Of a stretch of DNA of 64,000 bases, positions 13,207 through 52,929 are shown piece by piece. A model generated the notes under the pieces. That model did not search any database and had not been told where the DNA came from. It saw nothing but the letters and a program-made list of their open reading frames with translations. The stretch spans positions 62,001-126,000 of the forward strand of contig CANBCI010000001.1 in NCBI GenBank assembly GCA_947367055.1. Reading direction: 5' to 3'. The translations under genes were made by a program, and so were the position numbers. Within the stretch, counting starts at the first letter, position 1; each line of letters starts with the position of its first letter. This DNA is from an uncultured Alphaproteobacteria bacterium (lineage in GTDB: Bacteria > Pseudomonadota > Alphaproteobacteria > Rs-D84).

Positions 13207-14760
13207 TTATTCCACGGCATGATACACCGAACCGCCGATGTTTACATTCAAGGCCCCGGTCGCACTGCCCGACGCCAAGCTGCCATAACACACTTGATTA
13301 TTATATCCGACATGCAATGACGGCGTCGTGCGCGAATTTTTGTACAACGGTATTGATACACCGTTGCCGATATGCAATGTCGTAATCCCGGCCTCGCAAA
13401 GCGGTATTTTCTCGCACAAGGCATCGCCATTCAATTCATACCCATTGACGCATTCCCATGGACAATTACTTTCCACCGCATACATTTCCGACGGCGTTGA
13501 ATACGATGTATAAATCGCATGCGCCGGCGCATTTGTACATGGCAAACATTTGCTGTACCAATTACCCCAATAAAGCGGTTCTGCGGCATAGTATCCGTCG
13601 CGGCAAGCCTCGTATTGTGTGAATGTTGTACCGGACGGCCCCAGGCTGCACTTGCCTTGATTTAAATAATATTTTCTTGTTTCATCTTCCAATATCCAAT
13701 CACATCTGCAATCATCGGCGGTTGTACAATGTTCCAAATCATCCCAAGAGCCATTTGACAAAGAATAAGTTGCGTTCGGGCTTGGCGAGCTTGACGGGAC
13801 CACATCAGCACAAGATGTGCGATTTGATCCGCCCGGGCAATAGTTCCCGCGGCCACAGGCGACGCACGATGTGTCACCGTTTGCACTGGAACCATAATAC
13901 CCCGCATCGCATTCCCACGGGCAGTTGGCGGAATTGGCACCCGTACCGACATAGTGTGCATTTTCCGGCTTGTTAGTGCACGCGGCGCATGATGTGCCGG
14001 CGCTTTGGTCGTTGTAAGTGCCGGTTTCACATAACGTGCATGATGTGGCATAGGTGTATGACGGATCCGGTCCGCCGGTATTGGGCACTGTATTGGTCGC
14101 CGTTGTATAGGAACCGGGGCTGCACGGCTGACATGAATTGGTGAAACCTGTACCTTCGGGTATGGAATTATTTTTATAATATCCGGCGTTACATTCCGAA
14201 AAAGTCTTGGCCGTACTGCAATCGTAAATATCCTTTTCAACCGAATAATAACACTTTCCGGATGCCCAGCGATAAAATCCATGATATTTAAATTCATATA
14301 TCCAACTGTCATACGCCGAATTATCCAAGTAACACTGAGTCGGGGATGTGCTACCTTGCGGGCTGAAACGTGACAATCTCCATCCGTACACGAAATACTT
14401 ATCGCTTTGGCCGTCCGGGCACCAATATTTTTCATTGTCACCTGGGCAATATGCATTTTCGTCGCACATAACGCATTCGCCGTTTAATTTATAATATCCA
14501 GGGTCACAGTTGCATACAGGCTGTGCAGTACCGCCGGCACATGTGCACCCGGACGGACACGCATCACACGAATTTCCCGCACCCGTCCCGTTCAGATAAT
14601 ACCCGGAACTGCACGATGTGTATTTTTTATATGCGGGGCATGTGTAGCCCGCACCATATGCAAACGGATTTACACATATCAGCACTAATGTAGAGAAAAG
14701 AAAACGGTGGATTAAATTCAGCATTGTCTTATCAGAAAATATCCACGATTTGTGCCGCAT
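13207..14760 (-). CDS. Exported cysteine-rich modular protein (paralogue 2)
   Basis: Function unknown; 517 residues from the ATG at 14760, which has GGAGGG 4 nt upstream. The signal peptide and residues 1-97 are identical to the protein at 674-2206. The middle then diverges, although it keeps the same module style (CPGDNxxYxCP, GTYNDxSAGTSCxACTN, CxxGYY). The last 60 residues are again alike (AGITTLHIGN, SIPLYK, NQVCYG). Probably a disulfide-rich surface or periplasmic protein. It lies inverted to, and 12.5 kb from, paralogue 1. Confidence 0.8.
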   Translation of the reverse strand: MRHKSWIFSDKTMLNLIHRFLFSTLVLICVNPFAYGAGYTCPAYKKYTSCSSGYYLNGTGAGNSCDACPSGCTCAGGTAQPVCNCDPGYYKLNGECVMCDENAYCPGDNEKYWCPDGQSDKYFVYGWRLSRFSPQGSTSPTQCYLDNSAYDSWIYEFKYHGFYRWASGKCYYSVEKDIYDCSTAKTFSECNAGYYKNNSIPEGTGFTNSCQPCSPGSYTTATNTVPNTGGPDPSYTYATSCTLCETGTYNDQSAGTSCAACTNKPENAHYVGTGANSANCPWECDAGYYGSSANGDTSCVACGRGNYCPGGSNRTSCADVVPSSSPSPNATYSLSNGSWDDLEHCTTADDCRCDWILEDETRKYYLNQGKCSLGPSGTTFTQYEACRDGYYAAEPLYWGNWYSKCLPCTNAPAHAIYTSYSTPSEMYAVESNCPWECVNGYELNGDALCEKIPLCEAGITTLHIGNGVSIPLYKNSRTTPSLHVGYNNQVCYGSLASGSATGALNVNIGGSVYHAVE

Positions 14761-14846
14761 ATGTCCCTCCGCTACTTGCACAAGTGAAACGACCGTTTTT
14801 TTTGGGCTTTTGTCCTTCGCCCCGCATGCCTGTAATTATAGGGATT
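14470..14846 (-). repeat. Inverted long repeat, copy 2
   Basis: This is the 377-bp partner of 589-964, in opposite orientation, differing only by one extra A (A8 instead of A7) in the leader. It covers the -10 box, leader, signal peptide and first 97 codons. Both ends of identity are sharp, as expected after gene conversion or recombination. Confidence 0.95.
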
Positions 14847-19572: not shown

Positions 19573-20220
19573 TTATTCCACCACCCAGTTGCAACGTTTA
19601 CTAGCAATTTCAGAAGTTATTACAAATACGCCGGTTTCATCCTTGTATTCATTTCGACAATTGTCCCTTACGCAGCGCGAAGACTTCAAATAACAATCCG
19701 TAATTTTCATATTCGCCATGCTGGGTGTGTGTCCGTACGACCACTGCTGATCATTTTCATCAACCCATGCATTATCTACACAACCTTCGCACATAACCGA
19801 CGGACATTGCACGCAGTCGCCCGCGTCCGCTGAATAATAATAACCATATTCGCACGATGCGCTAACTGACACAACCGTCCATGTATCGCACATGCATCCA
19901 CTACCCTGTTCCGTAATTGTAACGTTACCCTCTGTCCTTGTACGTGTTCCGCAAGATGTATAACAAAACCCGGTAGAGCTGCATCGCAGATTACTGTATG
20001 TAGAGTTGACCGCAACATCCGTCACGCCGCCACCGCACCCGGCATACTGCGGAACGCAATTGCTGATATGTGTTGTGCCGCCACCCAGACACCATGCACA
20101 TTTGTTTGATTCATTTGCGCAATATACGTTATTGCCACTACTGCCATAGATAGAATACGCACCATATGCGCCATACATATTGCATAAAACAACAACAGCA
20201 ATCACAAATCTCTTTAGCAT
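19573..20220 (-). CDS. Exported cysteine-rich protein downstream of structured RNA A
   Basis: Function unknown; 215 residues. A signal peptide (MLKRFVIAVVVLCNMYGAYG) is followed by about 20 Cys in patterns such as CAWCLGG, CVQCPSVMCEGC and CGTRTR, so it is probably disulfide-stabilised outside the cytoplasm. The ATG at 20220 has GAGGA about 9 nt upstream. It is preceded by a promoter, a 191-nt structured RNA and a terminator whose U run ends 7 nt before that ribosome site. Its 3' end nearly meets the convergent sufB. It looks inserted into the suf locus. Confidence 0.75.
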   Translation of the reverse strand: MLKRFVIAVVVLCNMYGAYGAYSIYGSSGNNVYCANESNKCAWCLGGGTTHISNCVPQYAGCGGGVTDVAVNSTYSNLRCSSTGFCYTSCGTRTRTEGNVTITEQGSGCMCDTWTVVSVSASCEYGYYYSADAGDCVQCPSVMCEGCVDNAWVDENDQQWSYGHTPSMANMKITDCYLKSSRCVRDNCRNEYKDETGVFVITSEIASKRCNWVVE

Positions 20221-20241: not shown

Positions 20242-20432
20242 AAAAACCACCAAAAAACGGTGGCTGGGGGATGAGAACAACTTCGAGAAATTGTGGGCTT
20301 ATTTATCTATATCGCCGCCCCCCAGCACTCTGGCCGGGGCACTTTTCATCACACAAAAAAAGACACTTTTACGCTTTTTTAGCATGACGCTCGAAAAGGG
20401 TTCTCATACCCGTCGACAGAACACCCGTCGAC
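20242..20432 (-). ncRNA. Structured leader RNA, copy A (unassigned family)
   Basis: Candidate 191-nt RNA, listed in RNA sense. Hairpin H1 spans 20432-20412 (7-bp stem, loop GGUGUUC). Hairpin H2 is at 20411-20398 (GGG, loop UAUGAGAA, CCC). Seven bases of the H2 loop (20407-20401) pair with 20277-20271. Helix P3 pairs 20395-20390 with 20287-20282 and encloses two hairpins plus the motif GAUAUAGAUAAAUA (20313-20300) and ACAAUU (20294-20289). The terminator CCACC/GGTGG plus five T is at 20263-20242. Copies B and C keep the same order with changed but paired bases. Whether it works in cis on the gene at 20220 or as a free RNA is not known. Confidence 0.75.
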
Positions 20433-34383: not shown

Positions 34384-34459
34384 GGGTGCGTAGCTCAGTT
34401 GGTAGAGCAACTGACTCTTAATCAGTGGGTCCAGGGTTCGAGTCCCTGCGCGCCCACCA
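34384..34459 (+). tRNA. tRNA-Lys (CTT)
   Basis: Cloverleaf with acceptor GGGTGCG/CGCGCCC, D arm AGCTCAGTTGGTAGAGC, anticodon stem ACTGA/TCAGT, loop CTCTTAA (anticodon CTT), T arm CAGGGTTCGAGTCCCTG, discriminator A and an encoded CCA. Its last 21 bases are repeated 191 bp downstream. Confidence 0.97.
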
Positions 34460-34523
34460 AAAATAAATGTCGCCTTTATGGCGGCAATTTATTTTTTGTA
34501 TCGGGCAAGCCGGACGAAGAACC
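34439..34523 (+). repeat. Direct repeat 1: tRNA-Lys 3' end plus downstream sequence
   Basis: 85 bp starting in the T loop of tRNA-Lys and including its CCA, the terminator and GGGCAAGCCGGACGAAGAACC. It is repeated at 34630-34715 with one extra T. Confidence 0.95.
34461..34497 (+). terminator. Terminator after tRNA-Lys
   Basis: GTCGCC/GGCGGC stem extended by AT pairs, followed by a run of six T. The same hairpin recurs in the second repeat near 34652-34689. Confidence 0.8.
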
Positions 34524-34629
34524 CTAAAAGCGGCGACAGCCGCGCGGGTTCGACAAGGCGTAGTTGAGAACAAGTGCATAGCACGCAGTTCGAAACGTCA
34601 CAACTGCCGCACAGGGCGGCACGCCCGAG

Positions 34630-34715
34630 CGAGTCCCTGCGCGCCCACCAAAAATAAATGTCGCCTTTATGGCGGCAATTTATTTTTTTGTATCGGGCAA
34701 GCCGGACGAAGAACC
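34630..34715 (+). repeat. Direct repeat 2: detached tRNA-Lys 3' end
   Basis: A copy of the final 21 bases of tRNA-Lys with CCA and the following 65 bp, without the rest of the tRNA. The 106 bp between the repeats (34524-34629) hold no gene. The arrangement looks like the attachment-site duplication left by an element that integrates in a tRNA 3' end. Confidence 0.85.
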
Positions 34716-34802
34716 TTTAAACCACCAATCCCCCTGTAAAAATAACTTGCTTTTATTTTATTCAATCTGAATAATCTTTTCTTTTTAAGAAAGGATACAA
34801 AT

Positions 34803-46492: not shown

Positions 46493-46924
46493 ATGGCCGC
46501 ACAAAATTACAAGACAATGGAATTGCCGCCAAAATATGCGCCGAAAAAATCGGAACCGTATATGTGCCCGATGCACTTGGCATATTTTTACCAGGTTCTC
46601 AATTCCCAGAAAGAGGAATTGATGCAGGAACGCGCGTCCGTTTTAAGCGATGTGCGCATGGCGGAAAAAACAGAAACCGCGGGTGTTGGCGACGAAGTTG
46701 ACAACGTCATGTTTGATCAGGAAATAAACATGAACCTGCGTATGTCGGAACGAAACAACAAACTGTTGGCAAAAATAAACGCCGCACTGGATAGACTCGA
46801 AAACGGAACATATGGATACAGTGTTGTGTCCGGTGATGAAATCGGCCTGCCCCGGCTGATGGCGCGACCGTTGGCCACAATGACGGTCGAAGAACAGGAA
46901 GAATATGAAAGCCGTAAAAACTAA
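46493..46924 (+). CDS. DksA/TraR-family protein lacking zinc-finger cysteines
   Basis: 143 residues. DksA proteins act with ppGpp in the RNA polymerase secondary channel. The long coiled coil has the acidic tip (GDEVDNV, two Asp three apart). The C-terminal globular part (GTYGYSVVSGDEIGLPRLMARPLATMTVEEQE) aligns with the usual GxYGxCxxCGxxI...RLxARPxAxxCxxC end, but all the Cys are replaced. The fold must be held without zinc, as in some other DksA homologues. Operon with trxA. Confidence 0.85.
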   Translation: MAAQNYKTMELPPKYAPKKSEPYMCPMHLAYFYQVLNSQKEELMQERASVLSDVRMAEKTETAGVGDEVDNVMFDQEINMNLRMSERNNKLLAKINAALDRLENGTYGYSVVSGDEIGLPRLMARPLATMTVEEQEEYESRKN

Positions 46925-46943
46925 CATATATTCATGAAACAAA

Positions 46944-46968
46944 AACCCGCCTCATGGCGGTTTTTTTA
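46944..46968 (+). terminator. Terminator of trxA-dksA
   Basis: CCCGCC, loop TCAT, GGCGG stem followed by seven T. Confidence 0.85.
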
Positions 46969-47013
46969 TTAATTTTCCTTTACCGCAAATAAAGTTTATG
47001 TAAAAATATGAAT

Positions 47014-47226
47014 GTCACAGGGAATTTCTGTGACGGGGCGTCGAAACCCCTTATAGAGGGTCCGGATTATTCCGGACATTTATGGCACAACGAAATAATT
47101 GCTTATTTTCATGGTTGTGCCGCCTTCCAACCACACAGGTTGGAGGATGGCTGAATATATTGAATAGGCCTGCAATTCTCTATAATTGTTTCGAACCTCC
47201 AACCACTTGATTTTTCAGTGGTTTTT
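47014..47226 (+). ncRNA. Structured leader RNA, copy C (unassigned family)
   Basis: Candidate 213-nt RNA. H1 is at 47014-47034 (7-bp stem, loop GGAAUUU). H2 is at 47035-47050 (GGGG, loop CGUCGAAA, CCCC), and its loop bases 47041-47046 pair with 47189-47194. P3 pairs 47051-47058 with 47178-47185 (8 bp). Inside P3 are perfect hairpins at 47060-47077, 47084-47121 (8 bp) and 47124-47146 (9 bp), then GAAUAUAUUGAAUA (47153-47166, identical to copy B) and GCAAUU (47172-47177). CCUCC is at 47196-47200, and the terminator is at 47203-47226. A weak promoter (TTTACC, 16 nt, TAAAAA) lies just upstream. Confidence 0.75.
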
Positions 47227-47265
47227 CTTTGGCAACAAAACACGCAAAGGGGGACGAAAAAAAAT

Positions 47266-47877
47266 ATGAAATACGTTACGTTAATTTTCTGCATAATGCT
47301 GTCAATGCCGGCATTTGCATACCTGCAGGTTTCCAGCGGTTCCGCACCCGGCACATGGTGCGACAGTGAGTGTACCTGGGGCGGATGCGGCGTGTTCAGA
47401 CAAATACAATGTGACTTTGATTGTGACACAATCGCCGACGAACTGACATCCCGGGGTGACTGCACCGATGACAATAGCGAATATTGCTATTTTGGAAAAA
47501 CCGGAAACACATATTATTACTGCGACCAAGGCGGCGAAGGGGCATGCTCAAATATTAGCGGCACCGCAAACATAAATCAAAACAGCAGCTGGGAAACACT
47601 CAACGCATCAAGACACAGTGTATTAAGCCACACATTTCACGTATCGGAACAAGAATACGACATATGCATAATCGGCCTGGTCAGAACAAATTACGGATGC
47701 GCGGCCGGATATTATGCAACACAAAACACCGGCACAGCAAACATAGTCTGCAGTCCGTGCCCCGCCGGCGGCAGCAGCGATTTGGGAAACACCGGTCAAT
47801 CCGGATGCTATCTACGTCCCGGTAACTTTAGCGACGCAAGCGGCACCGGGCAGTATACCGCAAACTGCTATTGGTAA
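47266..47877 (+). CDS. Exported cysteine-rich protein downstream of structured RNA C
   Basis: Function unknown; 203 residues. The signal peptide MKYVTLIFCIMLSMPAFA precedes about 20 Cys (WCDSECTWGGCG, CDFDCD, CSPCPAGGSS) and a tail GCYLRPGNFSDASGTGQYTANCYW that resembles modules in the larger cysteine-rich paralogues. The start at 47266 begins the signal peptide; the AGGGGGA site is rather far (11 nt). It is preceded by a structured RNA with its terminator and followed by a second terminator. Confidence 0.7.
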   Translation: MKYVTLIFCIMLSMPAFAYLQVSSGSAPGTWCDSECTWGGCGVFRQIQCDFDCDTIADELTSRGDCTDDNSEYCYFGKTGNTYYYCDQGGEGACSNISGTANINQNSSWETLNASRHSVLSHTFHVSEQEYDICIIGLVRTNYGCAAGYYATQNTGTANIVCSPCPAGGSSDLGNTGQSGCYLRPGNFSDASGTGQYTANCYW

Positions 47878-51923: not shown

Positions 51924-52694
51924 TTATTCCATGCATTCGGGTTCATCCGGAAACTCTTCGCAGAGTTCGTCTGCCTCGTCTGTACTATCCGCATCCTGTT
52001 CGGGTGCGTTATCTTGCTTGGAATCTTGTTCGACCGCCGCCGCCGATATTGCAACATTTTCTGGATTGTTTTTTTGCGGAACACTTACCGCGTCGCCATT
52101 ATTCGCCGCGGGATTTTCCGTCATCGGTCGAATGTCGGTGTTCTGCGCCGCCGCCGTGTTATCTTTTATCCCGCCCAGGGATGCGGCGGACGCAATCATT
52201 GCGATGCCTGCGCTTATATCATTTGACGAACTATCGGATTCAACACGCCGCACTGCGGACGTCATTTGGTATTCCGGCGACGCGGCCGCAACTTTGTACA
52301 GGCGCCCATCGGCATCAATAATGTTTTCAAAATCCGGCACGGGCGGCATGTCCAATTCATCCCGCAAGGCATTAACCCTTTGCAACAGATTGATATAAGA
52401 ATCACGCAGGCCAGCGAAAGGCTGGCCGGGTTCTGGCAACTTATGCGACTGCTTATAAGATACATGCGGATAATTGGACGAATAAATGCAATTTATGGTT
52501 GCTTGAAAATTCCGCATGTCTTGCGCGGCATCAACATCGGCCCGCGCCGTCGCCGTGGCAGATGCGATTTTTTCTACGCCCGCCGACATCATCCCCAGAT
52601 CCGCAGCATATCCGTTTTGATTTTGATCGCAATATGCATGAAAAGTCACACACAAATTTAATAAAACAATTAAAACGATTTTTCTGGCTCCCAT
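51924..52694 (-). CDS. Exported acidic protein downstream of structured RNA B
   Basis: Function unknown; 256 residues. A signal peptide (residues 1-22, KIVLIVLLNLCVTFHAYC) precedes a helical middle (VEKIASATATARADVDAAQDM, YINLLQRVNALRDEL) and a low-complexity Ala/Asn/Asp-rich region. The tail is very acidic (DSTDEADELCEEFPDEPECME). It is the first gene after the 206-nt structured RNA and its terminator, separated by a second small hairpin (about 52700-52728). Confidence 0.65.
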   Translation of the reverse strand: MGARKIVLIVLLNLCVTFHAYCDQNQNGYAADLGMMSAGVEKIASATATARADVDAAQDMRNFQATINCIYSSNYPHVSYKQSHKLPEPGQPFAGLRDSYINLLQRVNALRDELDMPPVPDFENIIDADGRLYKVAAASPEYQMTSAVRRVESDSSSNDISAGIAMIASAASLGGIKDNTAAAQNTDIRPMTENPAANNGDAVSVPQKNNPENVAISAAAVEQDSKQDNAPEQDADSTDEADELCEEFPDEPECME

Positions 52695-52723: not shown

Positions 52724-52929
52724 AAAAACCGTCAAACAATTGACGGTCGGGAGGCTAGAAACAATCCTATGAATTGCGCGCCGTATTCAATATATTCCGG
52801 CGCCCTCCCAACCGGGGGCTGGGACACATTTCATCGCAGGATAAAAAAACAGCGCATTAGCGCGCCATCCATATTCTGTGACGCATAGGCAAGAGGTTTC
52901 TAGGCCTCGTCAGCAGAACACCTGCTGAC
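52724..52929 (-). ncRNA. Structured leader RNA, copy B (unassigned family)
   Basis: Candidate 206-nt RNA, listed in RNA sense. H1 is at 52929-52909 (7-bp stem, loop GGUGUUC as in copy A). H2 is at 52908-52893 (GAGG, loop CCUAGAAA, CCUC), and loop bases 52903-52897 pair with 52761-52755. P3 pairs 52889-52884 with 52771-52766. Inside P3 are further hairpins, then GAAUAUAUUGAAUA (52797-52784) and GCAAUU (52777-52772). A second CCUC (52754-52751) can compete for GAGG. The terminator CCGTCAA/TTGACGG plus five T is at 52746-52724. Confidence 0.75.

Follow-up and report, generated by a model that had tools for sequence, protein, structure and literature searches.

The locus raises the question of what a strongly folded RNA of about 210 nt, encoded just 5' of a protein gene, does for a bacterium with a very small genome. 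The window analysed here, a stretch of 64,000 nt in all, belongs to a genome of 0.96 Mb in five contigs (96% complete). An initial annotation had placed a structured RNA at 47014-47226 as the third of three copies (A, B and C) and likened it to a riboswitch or ribozyme. The structured RNA of copy C runs from 47014 to 47223 on the plus strand, its first base being the start of P1 and its last the end of a terminator stem with a T-run next to it, so the boundaries first proposed were nearly exact. Its fold energy is -90.1 kcal/mol compared with -57.8 kcal/mol for shuffled sequences (z -6.9), and none of 200 shuffles was as stable. The internal hairpins already described at 47060-47077 and 47084-47121 are present in the predicted fold, as is a third at 47123-47146 (previously given as 47124-47146). 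The parts of the RNA and its surroundings are listed in Table 1. An open reading frame crossing the RNA from an ATG at 47082 was judged accidental because the length of this region differs between copies, and a hammerhead-like reading of the motif CGAAAC was dropped because the same stretch covaries as one strand of pseudoknot PK-A.

Table 1. Features of copy C and its neighbourhood, followed by copies B and A, in window coordinates.
Feature	Position	Strand	Description	Basis
Promoter-like stretch	46979-47008	+	TTTACC, then AT-rich -10-like region, just 5' of the RNA; weaker than at most copies	Read from sequence
P1	47014-47034	+	5' hairpin, 8 bp, loop GAATT	Fold; GNNUU-type loops recur in own-genome copies
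P2	47035-47050	+	Hairpin GGGG/CCCC; loop bears PK-A 5' strand	93.3% of cells paired, double-sided changes in 4/4 pairs
PK-A 5' strand	47041-47047	+	UCGAAAC; partner GUUUCGA at 47188-47194	Covariation
PK-B 5' strand	47051-47058	+	UUAUAGAG; partner is P5 loop, 47178-47185	Covariation
Variable region	47060-47121	+	Two extra hairpins (47060-47077, 47084-47121), number not conserved	Fold, copy comparison
X 5' strand	47124-47132	+	CUUCCAACC; putative OFF arm, partner is switching strand 47138-47146	Covariation
Switching strand (G-arm)	47138-47146	+	GGUUGGAGG; alternative partners 47124-47132 and 47196-47204	Covariation
P4	47149-47170	+	Hairpin with conserved loop GAAUAUAUUGAAUA	Stem covaries
P5	47173-47188	+	Hairpin CAAUU/AAUUG; loop is PK-B 3' strand	Double-sided changes in 5/5 pairs
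PK-A 3' strand	47188-47194	+	GUUUCGA	Covariation
P3 3' strand	47196-47204	+	CCUCCAACC; putative ON arm, antiterminator partner	98.6% of cells paired (set partly chosen on the partner arm)
Terminator hairpin	47201-47223	+	AACCACU...AGUGGUU; 47201-47204 in common with P3	Sequence, fold
Terminator T-run	47222-47230	+		Sequence
Shine-Dalgarno-like	47246-47254	+	AAAGGGGGA	Sequence
Gene behind copy C	47266-47877	+	203 aa, signal-peptide-like N-terminus, Cys-rich	ORF reading
Copy B	52744-52910	-	Core of the same RNA as copy C	79.0 bits
ORF behind copy B	51927-52694	-	256 aa, signal peptide	ORF reading
Copy A	20260-20414	-	Core of the same RNA as copy C	47.6 bits
ORF behind copy A	19576-20220	-	215 aa, signal peptide	ORF reading

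The three copies of the window proved to be a small part of a large family. The 14-mer GAATATATTGAATA is indeed identical in copy C (47153-47166, plus strand) and copy B (52784-52797, minus strand), with four matches at up to two mismatches where 1.0 was expected. BLAST of the whole genome with copy C as query gave 25 rows, and a covariance model built from 20 own-genome copies (R1, from set A2; 132 positions, pseudoknots not included) yielded 48 rows at E <= 1e-3 and 51 at E <= 1. Removal of one opposite-strand row lying over copy C itself left the own-genome set of 50 copies. Copy C scored 98.5 bits, with copies B and A lower (Table 1). Several copies are grouped in tandem, two to seven to an array and separated by few genes or none, at 144.1-145.4 kb of contig C3 (L015), 26.9-27.8 kb of C4 (L014) and 20.9-21.2 kb of C5 (L009). 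The array on C3 ends at an HTH_3 regulator of a family marked by MSGRPFKP, and a member of this family also lies behind an RNA copy at 52.1 kb of contig C1.

We assessed the helices by covariation in 105 aligned copies (set A3). For P2, PK-A, P3, P4 and P5 together, 94.0% of cells were paired compared with 76.9% after shuffling, and double-sided changes were seen in 457 cells compared with 139.6, with no slid version of the helices coming near; shuffles across kin sequences overstate the significance of such differences somewhat. PK-A was absent from the search model, yet 95% of its cells were paired, with double-sided changes in all six counted pairs. PK-B reached 5 bp or more in 94 of 104 copies, with a mean score of 15.5 compared with 7.8 (sd 0.2) for swapped partners. 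The 102 other-species copies were picked, among the matches listed, with a search pattern anchored to the G-arm and P4 loop, so that conservation of P3 and P4 in that set is inflated. The 50 own-genome copies were chosen by the model alone, and there PK-A scored 15.7 compared with 9.0 for swapped partners (sd 0.38) and PK-B 16.7 compared with 11.6 (sd 0.36). Both pseudoknots, which are in none of the models, recur in Enterousia-type, class-level and phage or plasmid sets. The effect size and the slid controls leave little doubt, on comparative grounds, that these helices and pseudoknots are real. Most copies have a private pairing code, and AAUA is near invariant, twice, in the class-level set, on both sides of an extra hairpin within P4; the P4 of copy C is a collapsed version of this AAUA/AAUA internal loop and its P4b hairpin. 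Comparison of the copies thus delineates a conserved core of P2, P4, P5, PK-A and PK-B with closing stem P3, placed between a promoter-like sequence and a gene.

The proposal that a discrete RNA of about 210 nt is selected for its structure, with variable peripheral hairpins, is therefore backed by covariation extending far beyond three copies. An ordinary repeat or mobile-element remnant, rich in inverted repeats and devoid of RNA function, is a highly improbable explanation: the roughly 50 copies, the tandem arrays and the ties of relatives to mobile elements would suit it, but structure is kept while sequence identity is lost, through hundreds of double-sided changes, and the same architecture is found across the phylum.

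Pairing between the P1 loop and the terminator loop was supported in the class-level set (8.3 compared with 6.6 for swapped partners, sd 0.30; none of 500 swaps as high) and unsupported among own-genome copies (437 of 500 as high); this contact is therefore not claimed for copy C. A covarying loop-loop contact tying both ends of the RNA together (UGAUG/CAUCA and others) was seen at class-level loci L248, L257, L258, L268, L274, L275, L276, L280 and L284.

The position of the RNA relative to genes was examined at both of its ends. A promoter-like match lies 5' of 41 of the 50 own copies, compared with 386 of 2000 random positions. On the 3' side, 33 of 49 own copies have, 22-80 nt from the RNA, a start codon accompanied by a Shine-Dalgarno-like sequence, although in this test, as in the own-genome loop-loop, leader-pairing and leader-repeat tests, two of the 50 copies (C3:254720 and C5:16477) were read on the wrong strand. 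The corresponding counts were 71 of 100 for other-species copies, 34 of 40 for class-level copies and 189 of 2000 for random positions, and the distance from RNA to start was tight, with medians of 44-48 nt. The gene behind copy C probably encodes a secreted protein, judging from its N-terminus. Pfam searches with the three window genes behind copies A, B and C found no family. A signal-peptide-like or membrane-like N-terminus was seen in 24 of 33 own downstream ORFs by a simple hydropathy rule that was also positive for 20 of 56 long ORFs of the window. Pfam families among some of the own downstream ORFs were trypsin, PLD-like, outer-membrane barrel and HTH_3. For the class-level set (A4, 41 matches, from which 30 downstream proteins were put to Pfam), they included outer-membrane barrels, HTH_3 and the phage regulators Bro-N and KilA-N; by our reading, type IV pilin-like proteins, which have no Pfam family, and lipoproteins also appear to be present. 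No shared metabolic pathway was found by Pfam among the own and class-level downstream proteins.

The 3' end of the RNA combines a terminator with two competing helices. With copies C3:254720 and C5:16477 on the correct strand, as in all own-genome terminator, X, P3 and pseudoknot counts, a terminator-like hairpin with a T-run stood directly at the RNA end in 40 of 50 own copies, compared with 93 of 101 other-species copies and 186 of 1000 random positions. Of the 50 own copies, 46 could form P3 with 7 bp or more and 45 could form X with 5 bp or more. X also tracks the strand of its own copy, scoring 16.4 compared with 13.3 (sd 0.39) when partners were swapped among the 50 copies. In the own genome the terminator usually has three or four bases in common with the P3 arm, and its median energy of -11.0 kcal/mol falls to -3.75 kcal/mol when that arm is occupied. 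The overlap is only 0-1 nt in four of the 40 own terminators, which leaves no switch action through overlap at those four. The layout of X, P3 and terminator is that of a transcription attenuator. The hairpin at 47123-47146, which had been regarded as peripheral, is thus real as a hairpin and misjudged as to its role, being one of two competing partners of 47138-47146.

These observations suggest the following course of events. Transcription would begin at P1. Persistence of the X hairpin (47124-47132/47138-47146), which is made early, would allow the terminator at 47201-47223 to form, so that only the RNA of about 210 nt would be made and the gene would be off. If the pseudoknotted core instead closes P3 (47138-47146/47196-47204), four bases of the terminator stem would be taken and transcription would read through into the gene for the putative secreted protein. 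Closure of P3 may be favoured by a ligand, a protein, a second RNA or the speed of transcription. We infer this direction, with X and terminator as the off state and P3 as the on state, from the layout. For copy C, nested folds calculated without pseudoknots gave -45.4 kcal/mol for the OFF state and -40.2 kcal/mol for the ON state; as the two are only 5 kcal/mol apart, the default state is uncertain. No recognisable terminator was found in 10 of the 50 own copies and no gene at the expected distance in 16 of 49, and several of these lie in tandem arrays. Copies without a terminator or gene may be trans-acting or remnants.

Transcription-terminating riboswitches, such as those for fluoride and ZTP, resemble this RNA in having a pseudoknotted core, exclusive helices and a terminator directly 5' of the gene. 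The riboswitch-type coupling of exclusive helices to a terminator is found in the own-genome copies, which thus show the logic of a riboswitch expression platform; nothing pointed to a ribozyme. A true small-molecule riboswitch, in which the core with its near-invariant AAUA/AAUA P4 loop would bind a ligand and the terminator would serve as expression platform, could account for the switch architecture, the near-invariant unpaired AAUA motifs and the regulon-like spread over many genes. Those riboswitches differ from the present RNA in that their ligands are known, whereas here there was no Rfam riboswitch match and the downstream genes have no common metabolic pathway. Among the candidate signals, GGDEF (PF00990) was found in none of ten same-genus copy-carrying genomes compared with all ten other carriers, and RelA_SpoT (PF04607) in none of the same ten compared with nine of ten; named genomes used as controls were positive. 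This makes cyclic di-GMP and (p)ppGpp improbable candidates for a general signal. We regard a ligand-binding riboswitch as improbable, and the relatives on phages, described below, count further against it, since the same core there lies in antirepressor leaders with antisense-like repeats.

A transcription attenuator acting in cis is the best-supported reading of the own-genome copies, its direction being the one deduced above. We next consider how widely the RNA occurs. R1 had matches in 48 of the 59 genomes in the relatives set, of which the own genome is one, in 175 of 190 genomes of the order and in 26 of 289 of the class. Among the matches listed, those with the exact core pattern came from metagenome-assembled genomes nearly all assigned to Alphaproteobacteria or unnamed proteobacteria of animal, rumen and insect guts, including Candidatus Enterousia; a single Aestuariivivens record among them is, by our estimate, at chance level. 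Enterousia is assigned to order Rs-D84, with genomes mostly smaller than 1 Mb (PMC12306168), and on these two grounds the host of copy C would fall there too. In the order search no copy was seen in the same-genus genomes G125, G129, G143, G173, G180, G183, G187 and G196, where stricter filters may miss weak copies, and close relatives have many. Such empty genomes would be consistent with fast turnover of copy number.

Class-level members (A4) retain the architecture of the RNA, and a second model built from them (R2) had matches in 44 of the 289 genomes searched for the class and in 27 of the 299 searched for the phylum, 20 of these 27 lying outside the class. When ten R2 loci were run against Rfam, eight matched RF02221, sRNA-Xcc1, at their 3' half. 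This link does not depend on the stepwise model alone, as R1, made from the own genome only, recovers nine of those ten loci at E <= 1 (best 4e-8). Seven RF02221-positive loci (L287-L293) are recovered by R1 at E 4e-8 to 1.4e-4, on which we regard the two RNAs as homologous, and two Alphaproteobacterial intermediates, L254 and L250, exceed the RF02221 threshold. sRNA-Xcc1 also shares the architecture of copy C: P3 encloses P4, with its AAUACAA...GAAUAA loop, and P5, and the Rfam alignment has the 3' strands of PK-A and PK-B at the same places. The 87-nt model of RF02221 corresponds to the 3' half only; P1, P2, X and both 5' pseudoknot strands lie outside, so the public model covers only half of the RNA. 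A search of the window with Rfam release 15 gave no RF02221 match at the gathering score (53 bits), and for 46900-47300 no RF02221 row even at E <= 10; nothing spanned the structure, the only rows being terminator-like chance matches. As it falls below the Rfam threshold, the window copy represents a divergent branch. Copy C is, as judged by homology and architecture and not by the Rfam threshold, a far-diverged branch of sRNA-Xcc1. The two pseudoknots, the terminator switch, the gene behind the RNA, the spread of the family over genome and phylum and the tie to sRNA-Xcc1 all go beyond the initial annotation.

sRNA-Xcc1 is reported as trans-acting in the title of a 2011 article by Chen. Here, about 50 copies are present per genome, many of them 5' of surface-protein genes. 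In Xanthomonas it is an 88-nt RNA, seen as a band of about 100 nt on Northern blots (PMC2996969), and in integron cassettes of that genus it lies 5' of symE in the same orientation (PMC12444791). Xylella has seven sRNA-Xcc1, five of them clustered (PMC12189769). The relative in E. coli O157 EDL933 is present in large amounts and not translated, with 40,293 reads, an RPKM of 25,609 and an RCV of 0.02 (PMC5331693, table 1). Among the titles and passages of the sRNA-Xcc1 literature that were covered, which took in few subscription papers, we found no proposal of a full-length pseudoknotted form, a terminator switch or C4-like control. A human-microbiome survey lists 100 unnamed candidates near HTH-XRE genes (PMC8040213), so overlap of the present RNA with one of these is possible.

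The description of sRNA-Xcc1 bears on a second alternative, that copy C is the gene of a stand-alone small RNA pairing in trans with other mRNAs or with matching copies, the gene behind it being incidental. A promoter-like sequence and terminator of its own, tandem arrays without intervening genes, the private pairing code of most copies and the short Xanthomonas RNA all fit such a role. Nevertheless, we consider it unlikely, since the distance to the gene start is narrow in own and distant copies alike (median 44-48 nt), a terminator switch is a cis arrangement and, in phages, the RNA and its repeated target share one transcript. We therefore judge it probable that copy C is a cis-acting leader RNA with a terminator switch, a divergent member of a lineage known only by its sRNA-Xcc1 part.

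Relatives on phages and plasmids offer a further view of how the core may act. BLAST with copy C found no match in the phage records, and phage members were reached only by a stepwise covariance-model route. Once reached, one family member matched 36 of 50,697 phage records and 169 of 5,426 E. coli genomes by BLAST, and another matched 157 of 72,556 plasmid records, mainly of Rhizobium and Agrobacterium. In a set of 16 phage, plasmid and proteobacterial members (A5), 5 bp or more were formed by PK-A in 15 members and by PK-B in 14; for each, none of 1000 swaps was as high. In Rac-SA53 the RNA ends 39 nt 5' of ant, which encodes an AntA antirepressor; in Vibrio phage Cla it lies 5' of a KilA-N gene whose annotated start overlaps it; and on an O157 chromosome it is 5' of an ORF6N gene. 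Three IMG/VR matches were unconvincing as phages, the one inspected (L198) having secreted proteins and a subtilase-like ORF.

The leaders of the downstream genes were compared with the RNA in 13 of the 16 A5 members, leaving out L294 (no gene found), L295 (a near-duplicate of L296) and L324 (no close gene). In these phage and plasmid members the leader repeats the 5' half of the RNA beside the Shine-Dalgarno sequence (score 15.2 compared with 12.3, sd 0.62; 0 of 5000 swaps as high), and the 3' half of the RNA is complementary to the leader (18.7 compared with 15.7, sd 0.84; 1 of 1000 as high). Both signals were weaker in the class set (0/300 for pairing, 16/2000 for the repeat). Own-genome leaders gave neither pairing at the ribosome-binding site (45 of 300 shuffles as high) nor a repeat of the 5' half (612 of 1000), and other-species Enterousia-type leaders gave no pairing signal (95 of 100 as high). 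In two genomes of one genus (L247 and L249), 10-12 bases of the leader are complementary to the PK-A region (GGAGACCGTTCA) of the RNA, and here too the complementary stretch overlaps the Shine-Dalgarno sequence. Phage members are mostly without a T-run, and the output of the RNA therefore seems to differ, with pairing at the start region in phages and a terminator in the host lineage.

The phage arrangement recalls C4 antisense RNA. As C4 of phages P1 and P7 (RF01695) is generally understood, it resembles the phage members in that its antisense strands lie within an RNA closed by a stem, one copy of the target lies upstream and another is located at the ribosome-binding site of an antirepressor gene downstream. 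It is unlike the own-genome copies, which have a terminator output and a double pseudoknot with the 5' half and in which target repeats were not detected. After processing by RNase P, the loops of C4 bind upstream and at the target's ribosome-binding site, and large families of C4 copies in one genome have also been reported, in Acinetobacter (PMC5320573). RF01695 did not match in the window, and at copy C only c4-a1b1 appeared, at 15.1 bits (cut-off 46.7), which is chance level. In E. coli O157 644-PT8 (L326, 880-1689), C4, isrK and c4-a1b1 RNAs lie some 500-700 nt 5' of an RNA of the sRNA-Xcc1 type, and each kind of RNA stands 5' of its own ORF6N gene. By analogy, the phage relatives favour C4-like antisense control of the downstream gene over a riboswitch or ribozyme.

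In phages and other proteobacterial relatives, then, the same two 3' strands would pair with the repeated 5' half, located at the ribosome-binding site of what is mostly an antirepressor gene, in the manner of C4. In the host lineage this antisense output seems to have been replaced by a terminator, and the element would have multiplied 5' of surface-protein and HTH genes. We propose, tentatively and with somewhat less than even confidence, that what is called sRNA-Xcc1 represents the 3' half of a double-pseudoknot leader found across the phylum. This leader would have arisen on phages and plasmids, where it silenced antirepressor-type genes in a C4-like manner; minimal-genome bacteria of animal guts would have domesticated it by exchanging antisense for a terminator switch, and its roughly fifty copies, most with a private pairing code, would control much of the secreted proteome. 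The proposal gives a testable structure and mode of action to a family hitherto described as a short sRNA of Xanthomonas, and ties together phage antirepressor control, the symE cassettes of Xanthomonas and the surface proteins of reduced gut bacteria. Some fifty leaders in a genome of 0.96 Mb, with no GGDEF or RelA_SpoT domain found in ten same-genus genomes, suggest that a large share of gene regulation in minimal cells may fall to RNA leaders. The E. coli prophage relatives open the RNA to laboratory work.

Two further repeats were seen in the window. An inverted repeat at 624-974 and 14460-14810 (351 nt, 98% complementary, 13.5 kb apart) lies in Cys-rich surface-protein-like sequence and is a possible site of inversion or gene conversion. 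A direct repeat at 34439-34529 and 34630-34721, with 59 nt at 100% and a spacing of about 191, spans the 3' end of a tRNA gene (34384-34456) together with a hairpin behind it, and looks like a tandem duplication at the tRNA.
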